Assembly: GCA_949297305.1 (NCBI GenBank)
Contig: CASFSG010000001.1
Location: 1 to 38,747 of the forward strand
Reading direction: 5' to 3'
Length of the DNA stretch: 38,747 bases
Source of the DNA: an uncultured bacterium
GTDB lineage: Bacteria; Bacillota_I; Bacilli_A; RFN20; CAG-826
Program-made: the position numbers and the translations under genes
In this document: in pieces, positions 16,993-23,751 of the stretch
Numbering within the stretch: position 1 is the first letter of the stretch
Layout of the letters: the number at the start of each line of letters is the position of its first letter
The notes under the pieces: model-generated
The model's input: only the letters and a program-made list of their open reading frames with translations
The model's database searches: none
What the model was told of the DNA's origin: nothing

Positions 16993-18480
16993 TTATTTTT
17001 CGTCTTTCATGCAAGGAAAGAGCAAAACTTCTCGAATTGATTGTTGGTTAGTCATTAACATTACTAAACGGTCAATTCCAATGCCAATTCCTCCGGTTGG
17101 TGGCATGCCATATTCTAAGGCGTTTAAGAAATCGGTATCTAAATCATTAGCTTCATCGTCACCACGATTTTTTGCTTCTAGTTGTTTGATAAATCGTTCT
17201 CTTTGGTCAAGAGGGTCGTTTAGTTCACTATAGGCGTTTGCAAATTCTGTTGCATTAATATAAAATTCGAACCTTTCAGTAAAGCGCGAATCCTGCGAAG
17301 ATTTTTTTGCTAAAGGCGTAACTTCAAGCGGATAAGTATGAACGAAAGTTGGTTGAATCAAATTCGCTTCACATTTTTCTTCAAAGAAAGCATTGATAAT
17401 ATATCCAACGGAATTCCAATGCTTTTCTAACGGGATATTATTATCTTTAGCGAGCTTAACCGCTTCTTCAAAACTCATTTCTTTTGAAAAATCGATACCA
17501 GTTTCTTCTTTAATTAGTTCGACCATCGAAACCCATCGAAAAGGTATTTCTAAATTGATGATTTTATCACCGTATGGCACTTCTAAACTCCCAACTACTT
17601 CTTTAGCGATTTGTTGGAAAATGCCTTGACATAAAGCCGCCATATCTTTTAAGTCGGCATAAGCCTCATAAGCTTCAACGGTTGTGAATTCTGGATTGTG
17701 TTTAGTATCCATACCTTCATTTCTAAACAAGCGACCAATTTCATAAACTTTTTCAATACCACCAACAATAAGTTTTTTTAGTGGTAGTTCGGTAGCTATC
17801 CTTAAATAAAAGTCCTTATCAAGAGTGTTATGATGAGTAATAAATGGTCTTGCGCTTGCGCCTCCAGCAATTGGATTAAGAACGCTTGTTTCAACCTCCA
17901 TAAAGCCTCTATTATCTAAAAATCGCTGCAAAACTCTAATTATTTTTGTTCTTTTAATTGCAACCTCCATTGCAAAATCATTCATGATTAAATCTACATA
18001 ACGATGACGATATCTTTCCTCGACATCAGTCAAACCATGAAACTTTTCAGGTAGTGGTTTAAGTGCTTTACTAAGATGAGTAAATTTCGTCACTTTAAGC
18101 GTTAATTCGCCAGTTCTTGTACGCATAGCCTTGCCTTCTAAACCAACAATATCACCAATATCCGCTAATTTGAAAACTGAATATGCATCTTCGCCTAAAA
18201 CATCAATTGCCACATAACCTTGCATTTTACCAGATAAATCTTTGATAGTTAAAAAAGACGCTTTCCCCATCTTTCTTAAAGAAATAATCCGTCCAGCTAT
18301 CGCTGCAACAATGTTTTTATCGTTAAGTTCCTCATCGGACAAATTATCACATTTTTCGTGTAATGATTTCGCGTTATCACTACGAACAAACTTTTCTCCA
18401 AAAGGATCAACACCTAAGGCGCGATATTTTTCTAATTTATCGCGTCTAGCAATTTCTTGATCTGTTAATTTAATTTCCAT
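16993..18480 (-). CDS. lysS: Lysyl-tRNA synthetase, class II
   Basis: A 495-residue cytoplasmic enzyme charging tRNA-Lys. The N-terminal OB-fold anticodon-binding domain (about residues 50-150) has the AGRIISLRKMGKASF strand. The class II core includes motif 1 near RFLDNRGFMEVETS, motif 2 GRLFRNEGMDTKHNPEFT (about 258-275) and motif 3 GIGIGIDRLVMLM near residue 470. An AGAGGTG ribosome site precedes the ATG. In Bacillus, lysS follows dus directly; here the pair is split by the patatin operon and a lipoprotein gene. It has its own promoter and terminator. Confidence 0.97.
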   Translation of the reverse strand: MEIKLTDQEIARRDKLEKYRALGVDPFGEKFVRSDNAKSLHEKCDNLSDEELNDKNIVAAIAGRIISLRKMGKASFLTIKDLSGKMQGYVAIDVLGEDAYSVFKLADIGDIVGLEGKAMRTRTGELTLKVTKFTHLSKALKPLPEKFHGLTDVEERYRHRYVDLIMNDFAMEVAIKRTKIIRVLQRFLDNRGFMEVETSVLNPIAGGASARPFITHHNTLDKDFYLRIATELPLKKLIVGGIEKVYEIGRLFRNEGMDTKHNPEFTTVEAYEAYADLKDMAALCQGIFQQIAKEVVGSLEVPYGDKIINLEIPFRWVSMVELIKEETGIDFSKEMSFEEAVKLAKDNNIPLEKHWNSVGYIINAFFEEKCEANLIQPTFVHTYPLEVTPLAKKSSQDSRFTERFEFYINATEFANAYSELNDPLDQRERFIKQLEAKNRGDDEANDLDTDFLNALEYGMPPTGGIGIGIDRLVMLMTNQQSIREVLLFPCMKDEK

Positions 18481-18503
18481 ATAACACCTCTACTAATCGC
18501 CTT

Positions 18504-18512
18504 ATTATATCA
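18504..18512 (-). promoter_or_regulatory. Extended -10 promoter of lysS
   Basis: TGA followed by TATAAT (18504-18509) on the minus strand, giving a leader of about 18-20 nt that contains the lysS ribosome site. The -35 region is weak. No T-box-like leader is present because the transcript leader is too short. Confidence 0.55.
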
Positions 18513-18553
18513 TTAATGCTACATTGATAAAGAAAATTGATTTTCTTTTAATA

Positions 18554-18582
18554 TAGAAAATAAATAAATTATGTCATAAGAT
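18554..18582 (+). promoter_or_regulatory. Promoter of the zinc-ribbon/patatin operon
   Basis: TAGAAA (18554-18559), 17-bp spacer, TAAGAT (18577-18582); 7 nt separate the -10 box from the ATG at 18590, so the mRNA would be leaderless. No Shine-Dalgarno is present. Confidence 0.45.
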
Positions 18583-18589
18583 TTATTAT

Positions 18590-19306
18590 ATGTATTGTAA
18601 AAAATGTGGATTTATTACTCGTGGCAACGAAAATTCTTGTCCTTATTGTGGTGAAACTTATGACACGAAAGGTAAATACGATAAACCGATTTCTTTTGTT
18701 AATTGGTTTGAAATAAGTCCACGTGTTCTAGTTGATTTAATTCTCACTAATCTTTATATCATTTTTGTAATTACTGACATCGTTTTGATTTATGGGATTG
18801 ATAATTCAACGAATCTTCATTTATCGTTTTACAGTTTCATATGTATATATGGTTTAATATTCATCATTAATGATCTTTTATTTCCTAAAGAACGCAGAAG
18901 AAATTTTTACTTTTTAAAGACTTATTTTTTCGTCATATTAAGTGGTTTTATTATGATGCTTTCTTTCCCGAGTTGGAATAATGATTTATTACCTATAATC
19001 AATATTTCATCTTTTCACTTTTGTTTTGGATATCTATATCCTTGCTTAATAATATTTTTAGTATTAGCCGGAACATTCCATTTTTTTATCCATAAGTTTT
19101 TTAATATATTTGCAACAGTCTTTTATATTTTGATTTTGATATTTTCAGGTCTAGCATTATTTATCATGGCGTTCTTCCCTGACTTAGGATTTAATAATGT
19201 TAATCGAATCCTAATTTATATTTCTTTTGGGACAGCAATATTTACAATGATAAATTTAGCAATCATTTTCTATCTAAAATTGCGTTCTAAGGGAGTAAAC
19301 GAATGA
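18590..19306 (+). CDS. Zinc-ribbon polytopic membrane protein, first gene of the patatin operon
   Basis: A 238-residue protein. A rubredoxin-like zinc ribbon at the N-terminus uses Cys3, Cys6, Cys17 and Cys20 (CKKCG and CPYCG knuckles). It is followed by six or so hydrophobic segments, at about residues 44-66, 77-97, 106-125, 132-160, 165-190 and 200-225. Similar zinc-ribbon-plus-membrane layouts are common in Firmicutes and rarely have a known role. Its stop overlaps the next start (ATGA, 4 nt), so it is tightly coupled to the first patatin. It may anchor or sense for the phospholipases, but this is inference. Confidence 0.75.
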   Translation: MYCKKCGFITRGNENSCPYCGETYDTKGKYDKPISFVNWFEISPRVLVDLILTNLYIIFVITDIVLIYGIDNSTNLHLSFYSFICIYGLIFIINDLLFPKERRRNFYFLKTYFFVILSGFIMMLSFPSWNNDLLPIINISSFHFCFGYLYPCLIIFLVLAGTFHFFIHKFFNIFATVFYILILIFSGLALFIMAFFPDLGFNNVNRILIYISFGTAIFTMINLAIIFYLKLRSKGVNE

Positions 19307-20151
19307 AAATTGGCTTATGCATTTCTGGTGGCTTTGCTCGAGGTGCGGCCCAAGCTGGTTTTTTAAAAGCATTTTTTGAAGTTGTTAAACGGGAAGATAT
19401 TGCCTTAATTACCGCTAGTTCGATTGGGGCTATTAACGCTATTTGCGTCGCCAACAATTCTTTAGATTATTTAGATTTCCTATGGCGAACAATCGATATT
19501 TTTGATTTCAAAAATCTTAAAATCAATTTAGGTAATAAAGTTGTTAGTCGTTTATTAGAAGATATTTCTAACCCCAGTCGAAAAATAGAAATACCTTTAT
19601 ATGTCACTGGCACTTGTCTAAATACCCTGTCTACTCATTATTTTTATCTAAACGACAAAACGCCTCGCGAAGATATATTGAAAGCTTTAAATATCACTTT
19701 AACATTTCCTTTTGTTAACGGGGTTTTTCGCCGCGAATATCATCGTTTTTATCTCGATGGTGGCTCGACTGATAATATTCCTGTTTATCCGTTTTATTAT
19801 TATGATTTAGATGCGATTATTATTTTGCACTGTCACCCGAATTATCTCCCACCAAGAAAGATGATTTTAGGAAATACCCCTATTATCGACATCGATGTGA
19901 CAACATTATGCAAAAACACAATTTCAACTTATTCCTTTTCAAACAAAAATTTAAATCGTCTCTATCAATTGGGTTATGAATATGGTTTAAAGTTTCAGCA
20001 CGATGTACTCGTTGGTTTAACGAAAGATAACGCTAAAGAAAGATTCCAAAAATTTCTTAGAGAAAACTCCGATTTAAGAAAACAAAACAAAATCAATTTG
20101 AGCGCAGCCATTTTCTTTAATAAGTTAATGAATTCGAGGTATTTAAAATGA
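19303..20151 (+). CDS. Patatin-like phospholipase (first of two)
   Basis: A 282-residue patatin-domain protein, predicted to hydrolyse acyl esters of lipids with a Ser-Asp dyad. The oxyanion loop is SGGFARGAAQAG (about residues 8-19), the nucleophile is Ser40 in ASSIGA, and the catalytic Asp152 is in DGGSTDN. The nucleophile elbow reads A-S-S-I-G, where the first position is usually Gly; the rest of the elbow is intact. No signal peptide or membrane helix, so it should be cytoplasmic or membrane-peripheral. It overlaps the genes on both sides by 4 nt. It is shorter than its partner, ending soon after the patatin fold. Confidence 0.87.
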   Translation: MKIGLCISGGFARGAAQAGFLKAFFEVVKREDIALITASSIGAINAICVANNSLDYLDFLWRTIDIFDFKNLKINLGNKVVSRLLEDISNPSRKIEIPLYVTGTCLNTLSTHYFYLNDKTPREDILKALNITLTFPFVNGVFRREYHRFYLDGGSTDNIPVYPFYYYDLDAIIILHCHPNYLPPRKMILGNTPIIDIDVTTLCKNTISTYSFSNKNLNRLYQLGYEYGLKFQHDVLVGLTKDNAKERFQKFLRENSDLRKQNKINLSAAIFFNKLMNSRYLK

Positions 20152-21356
20152 AAAAGAAAATTGGTTTAGTTTTAGCAGGCGGAGGCGGGCTTGGTTCGTA
20201 TGAACTAGGCGCTTTTTTAGCGCTTTATGAAGAAGGTATAAGATTTGATATTGTGACCGGCACTTCGATTGGTGCACTTAACGGAGCATTCATCGCCGCA
20301 AATAATATTCAAAAGATGGAAGATCTATGGGATGAAATAACCCCAGAAAAAATAATGGTTGATGGTATTAATTTTCGCACAAGTCTAAAATATAATCTCC
20401 AGGATCCAAAAGCTTTAACAAAATTTATTAAAACATTTATAAAAAATAAGTCAGTGGATATCACTCCTTTTAAAAATTTAATTAAAAAGCATTTGGACTT
20501 AGACGCATTGAAAGAAAGTAACACAATATTAGGAATCATTACGACAAATGTAACGCATAACGAAGAAGTTAGAATAATCGTTAATGAATTAGATAAAAAA
20601 ATGATGCTACTATATCTTCATGCTTCTAGCGCCTGCGTCCCCTATTTTCCAAGCGAAGAAATTAATGGTGAAAAATATGTTGATGGCTTTTTTAAGAACA
20701 ACTTCCCTATCCATTACGCTTTCTTATTAGGAGCTGATGAGGTCTATGCTGTCGATTTAAAATTATTCAATCTCGAATCCAAAAATCAATTTTTAACAAA
20801 GCTTCATAATGTCAAATATATTGCCCCACGAGTATCCTTAGGTTCGATGATTGATTTTTCACAAGAAACGATACAAAAAAATAAAAAACGCGGATATAAC
20901 GATACAAAAAAATTATTGGGTTATTATCGTGGATATATTTTTACCTTTTTAAAGAACGAAAACTTTGATAAATTTGCGACCGAATTTGAAACGATGATCT
21001 TTAAAGAAAACGGTGAAGGAATTCAACGCTTAAGAAAGTTTATTAATGAACACAATAATGAAGAAACTTGTCCATTAGAATATAAATATTCTTTGTTTTT
21101 AACTTGCTTAGAATTTGTTGGGCTTAAATATGAGATGATAGATGAAGAAATATACGATGTCGTTAGTTTCTATCAAAAGCTATATGAAATATATATAAAT
21201 TCGCGACCTTCGGTTAAACAATTTATTACGCGGATAAAAACTAATTTGTTAGAAGAAATTGCAAATGAAAATTCTAATTTATATATCGAGGGTGCATTAG
21301 ATCATATCGACAATATTTTTCTATATTTAGGAATTGCTTTGATGCGAATTAGTTAG
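20148..21356 (+). CDS. Patatin-like phospholipase (second of two, longer)
   Basis: A 402-residue protein. The patatin domain covers about residues 1-220: glycine-rich loop LAGGGGLGSYELGA (about 8-21), nucleophile Ser40 in GTSIGA and Asp179. Two departures are visible: the usual Arg/Lys of the oxyanion loop is Leu (GGGGLG), and the DG[GA] motif reads DGF. The Ser-Asp dyad is preserved. About 180 residues after the fold form a helical C-terminal domain with no recognised family. It is translated by ATGA overlap from the first patatin. The 3' end overlaps the convergent lipoprotein gene by 8 bp. Confidence 0.87.
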   Translation: MKKKIGLVLAGGGGLGSYELGAFLALYEEGIRFDIVTGTSIGALNGAFIAANNIQKMEDLWDEITPEKIMVDGINFRTSLKYNLQDPKALTKFIKTFIKNKSVDITPFKNLIKKHLDLDALKESNTILGIITTNVTHNEEVRIIVNELDKKMMLLYLHASSACVPYFPSEEINGEKYVDGFFKNNFPIHYAFLLGADEVYAVDLKLFNLESKNQFLTKLHNVKYIAPRVSLGSMIDFSQETIQKNKKRGYNDTKKLLGYYRGYIFTFLKNENFDKFATEFETMIFKENGEGIQRLRKFINEHNNEETCPLEYKYSLFLTCLEFVGLKYEMIDEEIYDVVSFYQKLYEIYINSRPSVKQFITRIKTNLLEEIANENSNLYIEGALDHIDNIFLYLGIALMRIS

Positions 21357-22743
21357 CTAAAAGACCTTCAACGTCTACGCTAGAAGAACCGAGGCGAGAA
21401 TAAATACAAGTGATTGACTTTTCGATGTATTGAGCATCAGTTTCTTTGATAATATATTGACCTAAATTTAAGGTAATTGTCATCAGTGGAGAAATGAGTG
21501 AATTAGTCATGATATTTAAATTATTAATGTTATAGGAAGTCTCTAAAAAATCTTCTATGAGTTGAATTTCATTAAACAATATATTCATAAATGCACGATA
21601 GTAAATGTTACTAGCAATATCGACGTTCTCTTTTAGTGTATAAACATCGGTTAAAATATGTTCAAAATCTAAGAAGGTTTGATATTGTTCATCACTAATT
21701 TCATTAGCGGCCAAGAACGTATCTTCTACCATATAATATGGCTGAATTGTGGTACTTTCAACTGGATTTCCCCACAAATCTCCAATATTTCTTTCGTAAG
21801 AGAGATATCCTAAGTGATTAGAATTATTCACCAGCAAAACCTCGCTATTTTGATTTATTTTATGCAAAGCATCTTCGGTGGCGATGACGCTATTTTGATA
21901 GGATGTTTCATTAATGATTTCACTGGTGGCACTATAAGACCCGTCTTCATTTAAAGCTGCAACATAGGTCGTTTCATTAATTTGAGCAGTTAAAGTATAA
22001 TTAGGTCCAAGTAAAAAGTTACCAAAATTAGAGCTGATAAAATGATTTAAAGCAAAGTCACTCGTAGGTATTTCACCACTAAGAATATAATCTTCCAGCG
22101 CTAAAATGATAGTTTTATTGATATCAAAAATATCATAAACAATCGTGCGAGAAGTATCGTTCCAACAAGAAATTGTCAAAACACCAATTTCATTAATCCC
22201 AATAGTTAAATGTGTCAAATTTTCCGATTGAGCGTACACTAAAGTACCAAAAATATTCCCAAGGTTACCATCATTAGGAATGATTAATTCATTATTTTCA
22301 CTATCGTAAAGATATTCATCAATATTAAGATTAGCTAAATTGATGAAGGTTGGAGATGTTTCGCTTGTTGAGGTAGTCACATGCAAAGAATTTGGATCAT
22401 TAACATTATTCATTGTAAATTCGTGCCATAAGTTATCATTAAGCAAAACTAAACCGCTCGTAAAATTAAAATCGCTTATTGAAAACGATGTCGCTTGATA
22501 ATTTATATTTTGATAAATGGTCATTAGCCCATTCGATGCAGTAAAATTAATTGAAGCGTCTTCTAAAATAACTTTTAAATCTCTTCTAAGCGTTTCTTCT
22601 GGTGTTAATTCAACAATTGAGGTAGATTCATTTTCGCTTGAAGAAGTGATGGAAGAGGGCAATATCACTGTCGTGCGTTGATCTTCACAAGATAATAATA
22701 GAATGGCCGAAACCGCTAATAAGATAAATCCTTTTTTCATCAT
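21349..22743 (-). CDS. Lipoprotein of unknown function
   Basis: A 464-residue secreted lipoprotein. The signal peptide (MKKGFILLAVSAILLLSC) ends in a lipobox LLSC, followed by a Ser/Thr-rich linker (about residues 25-50) and an extracytoplasmic domain rich in Asn, Ser, Thr and Ile with no recognised family. Two ATG codons stand side by side; TATAAT (22749-22754) is 5 nt before the first (22743) and 8 nt before the second (22740), so the second may be the true start. No Shine-Dalgarno is seen. It follows dus by 18 nt on the same strand and converges on the patatin operon with an 8-bp overlap. Confidence 0.8.
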   Translation of the reverse strand: MMKKGFILLAVSAILLLSCEDQRTTVILPSSITSSSENESTSIVELTPEETLRRDLKVILEDASINFTASNGLMTIYQNINYQATSFSISDFNFTSGLVLLNDNLWHEFTMNNVNDPNSLHVTTSTSETSPTFINLANLNIDEYLYDSENNELIIPNDGNLGNIFGTLVYAQSENLTHLTIGINEIGVLTISCWNDTSRTIVYDIFDINKTIILALEDYILSGEIPTSDFALNHFISSNFGNFLLGPNYTLTAQINETTYVAALNEDGSYSATSEIINETSYQNSVIATEDALHKINQNSEVLLVNNSNHLGYLSYERNIGDLWGNPVESTTIQPYYMVEDTFLAANEISDEQYQTFLDFEHILTDVYTLKENVDIASNIYYRAFMNILFNEIQLIEDFLETSYNINNLNIMTNSLISPLMTITLNLGQYIIKETDAQYIEKSITCIYSRLGSSSVDVEGLLAN

Positions 22744-22761
22744 CAGTAATTATAATAACAT

Positions 22762-23751
22762 TTAATCATCAAAATTACATTTTTTCAAAATTAAGTCAAC
22801 GATTTTAATCACATCTTCGCGATACTTAATCGTCTTTGTAAAAAGATCGCGATAATATCGATAATTAGGAAAGTTACGAATAAATTTAGGTCCACTACCA
22901 CGAAGATATCTAATTGCTTTTTCTTCACCTTTTTCCTCAATTAACAAATCCATAAAGTTAATTAAGTAATTCATTTGGGCTCTTAAATCGATGCCATAAT
23001 TAATCTTTTCTCCACTATTGAAATAAGTTTCAATTGCTTTTATTAGTTCGGGGTTACCAATTCCACCTCGTGCGACCATAATTCCGCTAGCATGAGTAAT
23101 TTCAAAGGCCTTAATTGCATCTTCTAAAGTAAAGATATCACCGCTAATTAATAGAGGAATTGACATTTTATCTTGCAAGTTATTTAACAAGTCATAATGG
23201 CACTTGCCAGCATATAATTCTTTCGCGGTCCGCGCATGTAAAGCTATGGCTTTGACGCCTGCTTCAATTAATATTTGAATAGTTTCATGAAAATTGATTG
23301 AATTAGAATCAAAACCTAATCGTATTTTTGCTGTAACAGGGCGTTTAGATTTATGAACAACGGCTTCGATCGTGTCTTTTAAACGATTTAAATCTTTTAA
23401 ATAAGATGAGCCAGATCCAGAATTAATTATCTTTTTTACTGGACAAGCAAAGTTGATATCCAAAATATCATATTTAAGATTTAATTCATCTAAAACGTCG
23501 ATGGCTTTTAAAAGCGTTGCTTTTGAATTACCAAATAATTGAATTGCTAAAGGACTATCATCGTTATTAATTGTCAACATTTCTAATGTGTTAGGATTTT
23601 TTAAAATCACTCCACAATCAGAAATCATTTCAGAATAAGTCAAAGCAACACCAAATCGTCGCATAAAAGAGCGATAAGCTGCACTGGTGATGCCAGCCAT
23701 CGGAGCTAAAACACATTTTGATGTAATTTCAATATCGCCAATCTTAAACAT
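22762..23751 (-). CDS. dus: tRNA-dihydrouridine synthase (DusB family)
   Basis: A 329-residue flavoenzyme reducing uridine to dihydrouridine in tRNA D-loops. The TIM-barrel start APMAGITSAAYRSF (about 17-30) binds FMN, the catalytic cysteine lies in NFACPVKKI (about 98-106), and K/H residues of TAKIRLGFD and ALHARTAKE contribute to the active site. The C-terminal helical tRNA-recognition domain starts at about 245. The position after ftsH matches yacF of B. subtilis. The start codon lies directly after a strong hairpin and has no free ribosome site: the only GGAGG is in the left arm of that hairpin. Confidence 0.93.
   Translation of the reverse strand: MFKIGDIEITSKCVLAPMAGITSAAYRSFMRRFGVALTYSEMISDCGVILKNPNTLEMLTINNDDSPLAIQLFGNSKATLLKAIDVLDELNLKYDILDINFACPVKKIINSGSGSSYLKDLNRLKDTIEAVVHKSKRPVTAKIRLGFDSNSINFHETIQILIEAGVKAIALHARTAKELYAGKCHYDLLNNLQDKMSIPLLISGDIFTLEDAIKAFEITHASGIMVARGGIGNPELIKAIETYFNSGEKINYGIDLRAQMNYLINFMDLLIEEKGEEKAIRYLRGSGPKFIRNFPNYRYYRDLFTKTIKYREDVIKIVDLILKKCNFDD

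Follow-up and report, generated by a model that had tools for sequence, protein, structure and literature searches.

Known patatin lipases act on their own, as virulence factors that are secreted, or as effectors of CBASS. Within the family PF01734, the bacterial PlpD-type and RssA-like enzymes have a patatin fold and a Ser-Asp dyad, and the CBASS effectors CapV and CapE are cytoplasmic patatin lipases, of which CapV degrades the host membrane after cyclic-nucleotide activation. PlaF of Pseudomonas aeruginosa, a membrane-bound intracellular phospholipase A, is a proposed remodeller of the cell's own phospholipids (PMC9132575). The locus described here encodes two predicted patatins, with the fold and dyad in common with PlpD-type and RssA-like enzymes, directly behind a zinc-ribbon membrane protein; the papers searched, all from one open-access library, contained no description of such a unit.

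The window, i.e., the entire 38,747-nucleotide stretch of DNA analysed (from the genome designated G000), follows the standard genetic code, as TGA serves as a stop within it. A first-pass annotation had reported three plus-strand genes joined by two 4-nt ATGA overlaps at 18590-21356, and both the open reading frames and the sequence bear this out. The first gene, ZnR-TM (18590-19306; 238 aa), encodes an N-terminal CxxC...CxxC zinc ribbon followed by six transmembrane helices, and shares a start-stop overlap (19303-19306) with its core partner pat1 (19303-20151; 282 aa); a second such overlap (20148-20151) links pat1 to pat2 (20148-21356; 402 aa), the product of which has a helical C-terminal region. 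Both pat1 and pat2 match the Pfam Patatin model. The triad had also been placed between lysS (16993-18480) and dus (22762-23751), both on the minus strand, which is accurate on the lysS side; on the dus side, a minus-strand lipoprotein-like gene (21349-22743) intervenes, convergent with pat2 and overlapping it by 8 nt. This gene is found at the corresponding position in G001 and G002, has no match in Pfam or PHROGs, and is fast-evolving (37% identity to its G001 counterpart, with the highest dN/dS among the genes compared). It shares the extra DNA between lysS and dus (18481-22761) with the triad and is at most a possible member of the unit. Lipoprotein-like genes also lie 3' of the unit at four other loci (L061, L067, L068 and L207) and are mutually dissimilar by eye.

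The same arrangement is not confined to the window. A pat1 profile run against the GTDB genomes yielded 15 pat1 loci at 32-92% identity, more distant matches being other, solitary patatins; where named, the genomes bearing pat1 are uncultured Bacilli. ZnR-TM lies directly upstream of pat1 at all 15 loci, including L065, at which a wrong-frame ORF had masked the gene until its recovery with tblastn. With a threshold of E below 1e-90, pat1 was detected in 18 of the 279 genomes searched within the order; four of the 18 are new, and each of these four has an adjacent ZnR-TM. In all, side-by-side ZnR-TM and pat1 were found in 20 of 20 genomes, the window's included, and across copies the genes mostly overlap slightly or lie a few bases apart. 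The full triad occurs in 14 of the 20, pat2 being next after the pair, and pat2 is missing beside the pair in the remaining genomes (G058, G040, G573, G554, G556 and G592); no patatin other than pat1 was found in the incomplete assemblies G058 and G040. Since the pair is present in 20 genomes and pat2 in 14, gene content identifies ZnR-TM plus pat1 as the core of the unit, with pat2 as a frequent but dispensable third member. The earlier suggestion of paired patatins with a membrane partner therefore holds as regards the constancy of ZnR-TM with pat1 (20/20, with a distance correlation of 0.9), whereas obligate pairing of the two patatins is weakened by the six genomes with no pat2 beside the pair.

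The correlation of pairwise distances is 0.90 for ZnR-TM with pat1 and 0.71 for pat1 with pat2 (Mantel p 0.0002 for each), whereas correlations with Mfd, our single organism marker, are 0.04 for pat1, 0.14 for ZnR-TM and a weak 0.36 for pat2. The Mfd clade uniting G470, G471 and G473 is rejected by pat1 (AU p 3e-88), as is that of G184 and G472 (AU p 1e-9); these p-values are model-based, and it is the direction of the result that counts. As judged from these trees and distances, the three proteins co-evolve, the core pair departs from the organism marker, and the unit moves horizontally as a whole. Deep duplication with loss could also lie behind the discordance with Mfd, at the cost of many losses. 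Neither the trees nor the Mantel tests include the Mfd of G002, which we regarded as foreign or misbinned: encoded at L138 (G002 contig C4), it is 44% identical to that of the window, as against ~90% for other G002 genes, and is probably the product of a misbinned contig or of gene replacement.

By our reading of the neighbourhoods, the unit occupies ~14 distinct sites. In 23 related genomes that lack the extra DNA of the window, dus and lysS are directly adjacent on the same strand (gap of 23-139 bp), and so the unit has been inserted in the window; the corresponding gap is ~4.3 kb in each of the three genomes that represent the window's genus. A second site, between tmRNA and degV, is occupied by the triad in G042 and G443 but empty in G014, a member of the same genus, where the two genes are neighbours and the flanking genes are conserved. 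Elsewhere, the unit directly follows tRNA-Ser (G040, G573) or tRNA-Gln (G473). Across three lineages its start falls ~25-175 bp past the 3' end of the tmRNA, tRNA-Ser or tRNA-Gln (L059 4807-5177, L070 5076-5166 and L069 4981-5055), positions that resemble integration hot spots. The tmRNA and tRNA sites gave no clear attachment-site repeat, nor was an integrase noticed next to the unit, and repeats around the window copy were mostly short, imperfect matches, including the patatin motif itself. A phage origin was rejected, as viral contigs hold no relative of pat1 and PHROGs gave no match; plasmid copies were likewise rejected, a search of plasmids with pat2 returning distant solitary patatins only. 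Lipid-related genes (degV, lgt) are found near the unit at single sites only. At one site, an AbiEi-like gene (L065 11528-12163, plus strand; PADLOC E=5e-28) lies ~3.4 kb after pat2, and G184 has a SMODS cyclase-like match (L182; contig C8, 30185-30622) on a contig other than that of the unit.

The membrane component has no significant match in any of the curated libraries searched (Pfam, NCBIfam, PADLOC and PHROGs) and, by this measure, represents a family without a description in them. Its ribbon motif, CKKC...CPYC at residues 3-20, contains four cysteines (C3, C6, C17 and C20) that are invariant across 16 orthologues. Six hydrophobic segments would span the membrane, and the positive-inside charge pattern predicts a cytoplasmic ribbon. 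An AlphaFold2 model (mean pLDDT 82.5) consists of six long helices, for which Foldseek returned no match at E<=0.001; a known fold was rejected, since VIA Z scores of up to 8.9 over 94 helical residues are at the level of unrelated helical models.

Both partner enzymes are recognisable patatins, with PF01734 matches of 62.1 bits (E=1e-16) for pat1 and 106.8 bits (E=2e-30) for pat2 against a curated cut-off of 27.7. The predicted catalytic residues of pat1 are Ser40 in ASSIG and Asp152 in DGG, both invariant in 16 orthologues together with G9, G10, R13 and G14; those of pat2 are Ser40 in GTSIG and Asp179 in VDGF, invariant in 14 orthologues. Each of the 14 pat2 proteins has a GxSxG nucleophile elbow, and in 12 of 16 pat1 proteins the first Gly of this motif is replaced by A, S or C. 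From the conserved dyads, both patatins look active. The predicted pat2 fold (residues 1-259) resembles PlpD, the nearest solved structure (Z 28.5, 26% identity), as well as CapV, CapE and plant patatin, with the helical C-terminal 140 residues lying outside the matched region; for pat1, PlpD is again the nearest solved structure, by profile (1e-9), with VipD also retrieved. Hydrophobic segments are absent from all pat2 and from 14 of 16 pat1 proteins, and both enzymes should be cytoplasmic, because the patatin motif sits so near the N-terminus as to leave little space for a signal peptide. In NG86 comparisons of G000 with G002, dN/dS is 0.02-0.05, values that are rough with dS near saturation and that suggest, in equally rough terms, purifying selection on the unit. 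Phylogenetic comparison of the two patatins, together with their low identity, ruled out recent duplication; pat1 forms a separate conserved family, with its zinc-ribbon partner likewise conserved, and the triad pat2 proteins form one branch beside solitary patatins of the same bacteria (SH-aLRT 85, not decisive). One such solitary patatin, of 432 aa and 33% identical to pat2, is encoded in the window's own genome (L055 10142-11440, contig C31).

We propose, with a probability of about 0.5, that the unit is a mobile accessory operon making a membrane-docked phospholipase complex with which the cell turns over or remodels its own lipids. ZnR-TM would be an integral protein of the cytoplasmic membrane whose zinc ribbon faces the cytoplasm, and would dock pat1, and usually pat2 as well, on the inner leaflet in a putative physical complex. 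The Ser-Asp dyads of both patatins would then cut acyl chains off membrane glycerophospholipids, the presumed substrate, to give lysolipids and free fatty acids. The likeliest use would be regulated turnover or remodelling of the membrane, a role favoured because of the purifying selection on the unit, the solitary pat2 relatives in the same bacteria, and the lack of a defence context. Two points count against this reading: a patchy and mobile distribution is unusual for a function in lipid upkeep, and lipid-related genes lie nearby at single sites only.

The patchy distribution speaks for a possible, though less probable, reading as an undescribed defence or abortive-infection system, in which ZnR-TM would sense membrane or envelope damage, or restrain the patatins, and phage attack would lead to degradation of the host membrane in a manner akin to CapV. 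Its occurrence in 18 of the 279 genomes from the order, presence and absence within one genus, the AU-supported conflict between pat1 and the organism marker, insertion beside tmRNA, tRNA-Ser and tRNA-Gln, and the closeness of the pat2 fold to CapV and CapE are all consistent with such a system. Against it, 74 neighbour proteins at 14 loci are mostly housekeeping, with PADLOC matches mainly to generic or weak domains, and no defence island was seen around these loci. Matches to PADLOC models of known systems speak neither for nor against: ZnR-TM had none, and the patatins had only weak ones, to generic phospholipase effector models (best 29 bits). Against defence, the unit is without a recognised nucleic-acid or nucleotide sensor, and viral contigs hold no pat1 relative. 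The SMODS model bears out the absence of a cyclase noted in the first-pass annotation: 15 of the 16 genomes tested gave no match, namely the window's own and all but one of the 15 others. CBASS itself was rejected, with no cyclase beside the unit and pat2 scoring 26.4 bits, far under the NCBIfam CBASS_lipase cut-off of 200. A more specific version, to which we give slightly less credence still, is a mobile system, for conflict or against phages, of a kind so far undescribed, with ZnR-TM replacing the cyclic-nucleotide signal and controlling one or two patatins that attack the membrane of their own cell. Of the two roles initially suggested, membrane-lipid remodelling is judged more probable than a novel defence role, with no defence island at the 14 loci scanned.

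A toxin-antitoxin-like pair, in which the patatins would harm the producer, ZnR-TM would neutralise them, and the unit would be kept by addiction, is improbable: the tight pairing, strong co-evolution and mobility fit, but two lipases with predicted intact catalytic sites and a large membrane partner are, to our knowledge, unlike known toxin-antitoxin pairs, and the plasmid search gave distant solitary patatins only. That these are unrelated genes and accidental neighbours, for which the only argument is that no shared pathway is known, is refuted by the comparative data, the same order being found in 14 genomes and the pair in 20, at ~14 unrelated sites and in several orders, and has next to no probability.

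Ultimately, a recurring mobile unit in which an apparently active patatin is coupled with one dedicated family of membrane proteins would amount to separate control of a membrane-degrading enzyme, and the ZnR-TM/pat1 core provides a simple two-gene system in which to ask whether a lipase is recruited, activated or restrained by a membrane protein. The enzymes appear to be of a known kind, and it is the operon pairing them with ZnR-TM that would be new. Unlike PlpD-type patatins, pat1 and pat2 are predicted not to be secreted and are encoded in an operon with a six-transmembrane zinc-ribbon protein, and most pat1 proteins differ from both PlpD-type and RssA-like enzymes in being without the first Gly of GxSxG. 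CapV and CapE are similar in fold to pat2 (Z 21-24 over ~230-240 residues) and cytoplasmic, whereas the present unit is without an adjacent cyclase, has a pat2 under the family cut-off, and includes a membrane partner. With PlaF the analogy would be functional only: PlaF is a single-pass protein with its own transmembrane helix, whereas here the membrane part is supplied by a separate protein with six predicted transmembrane helices.
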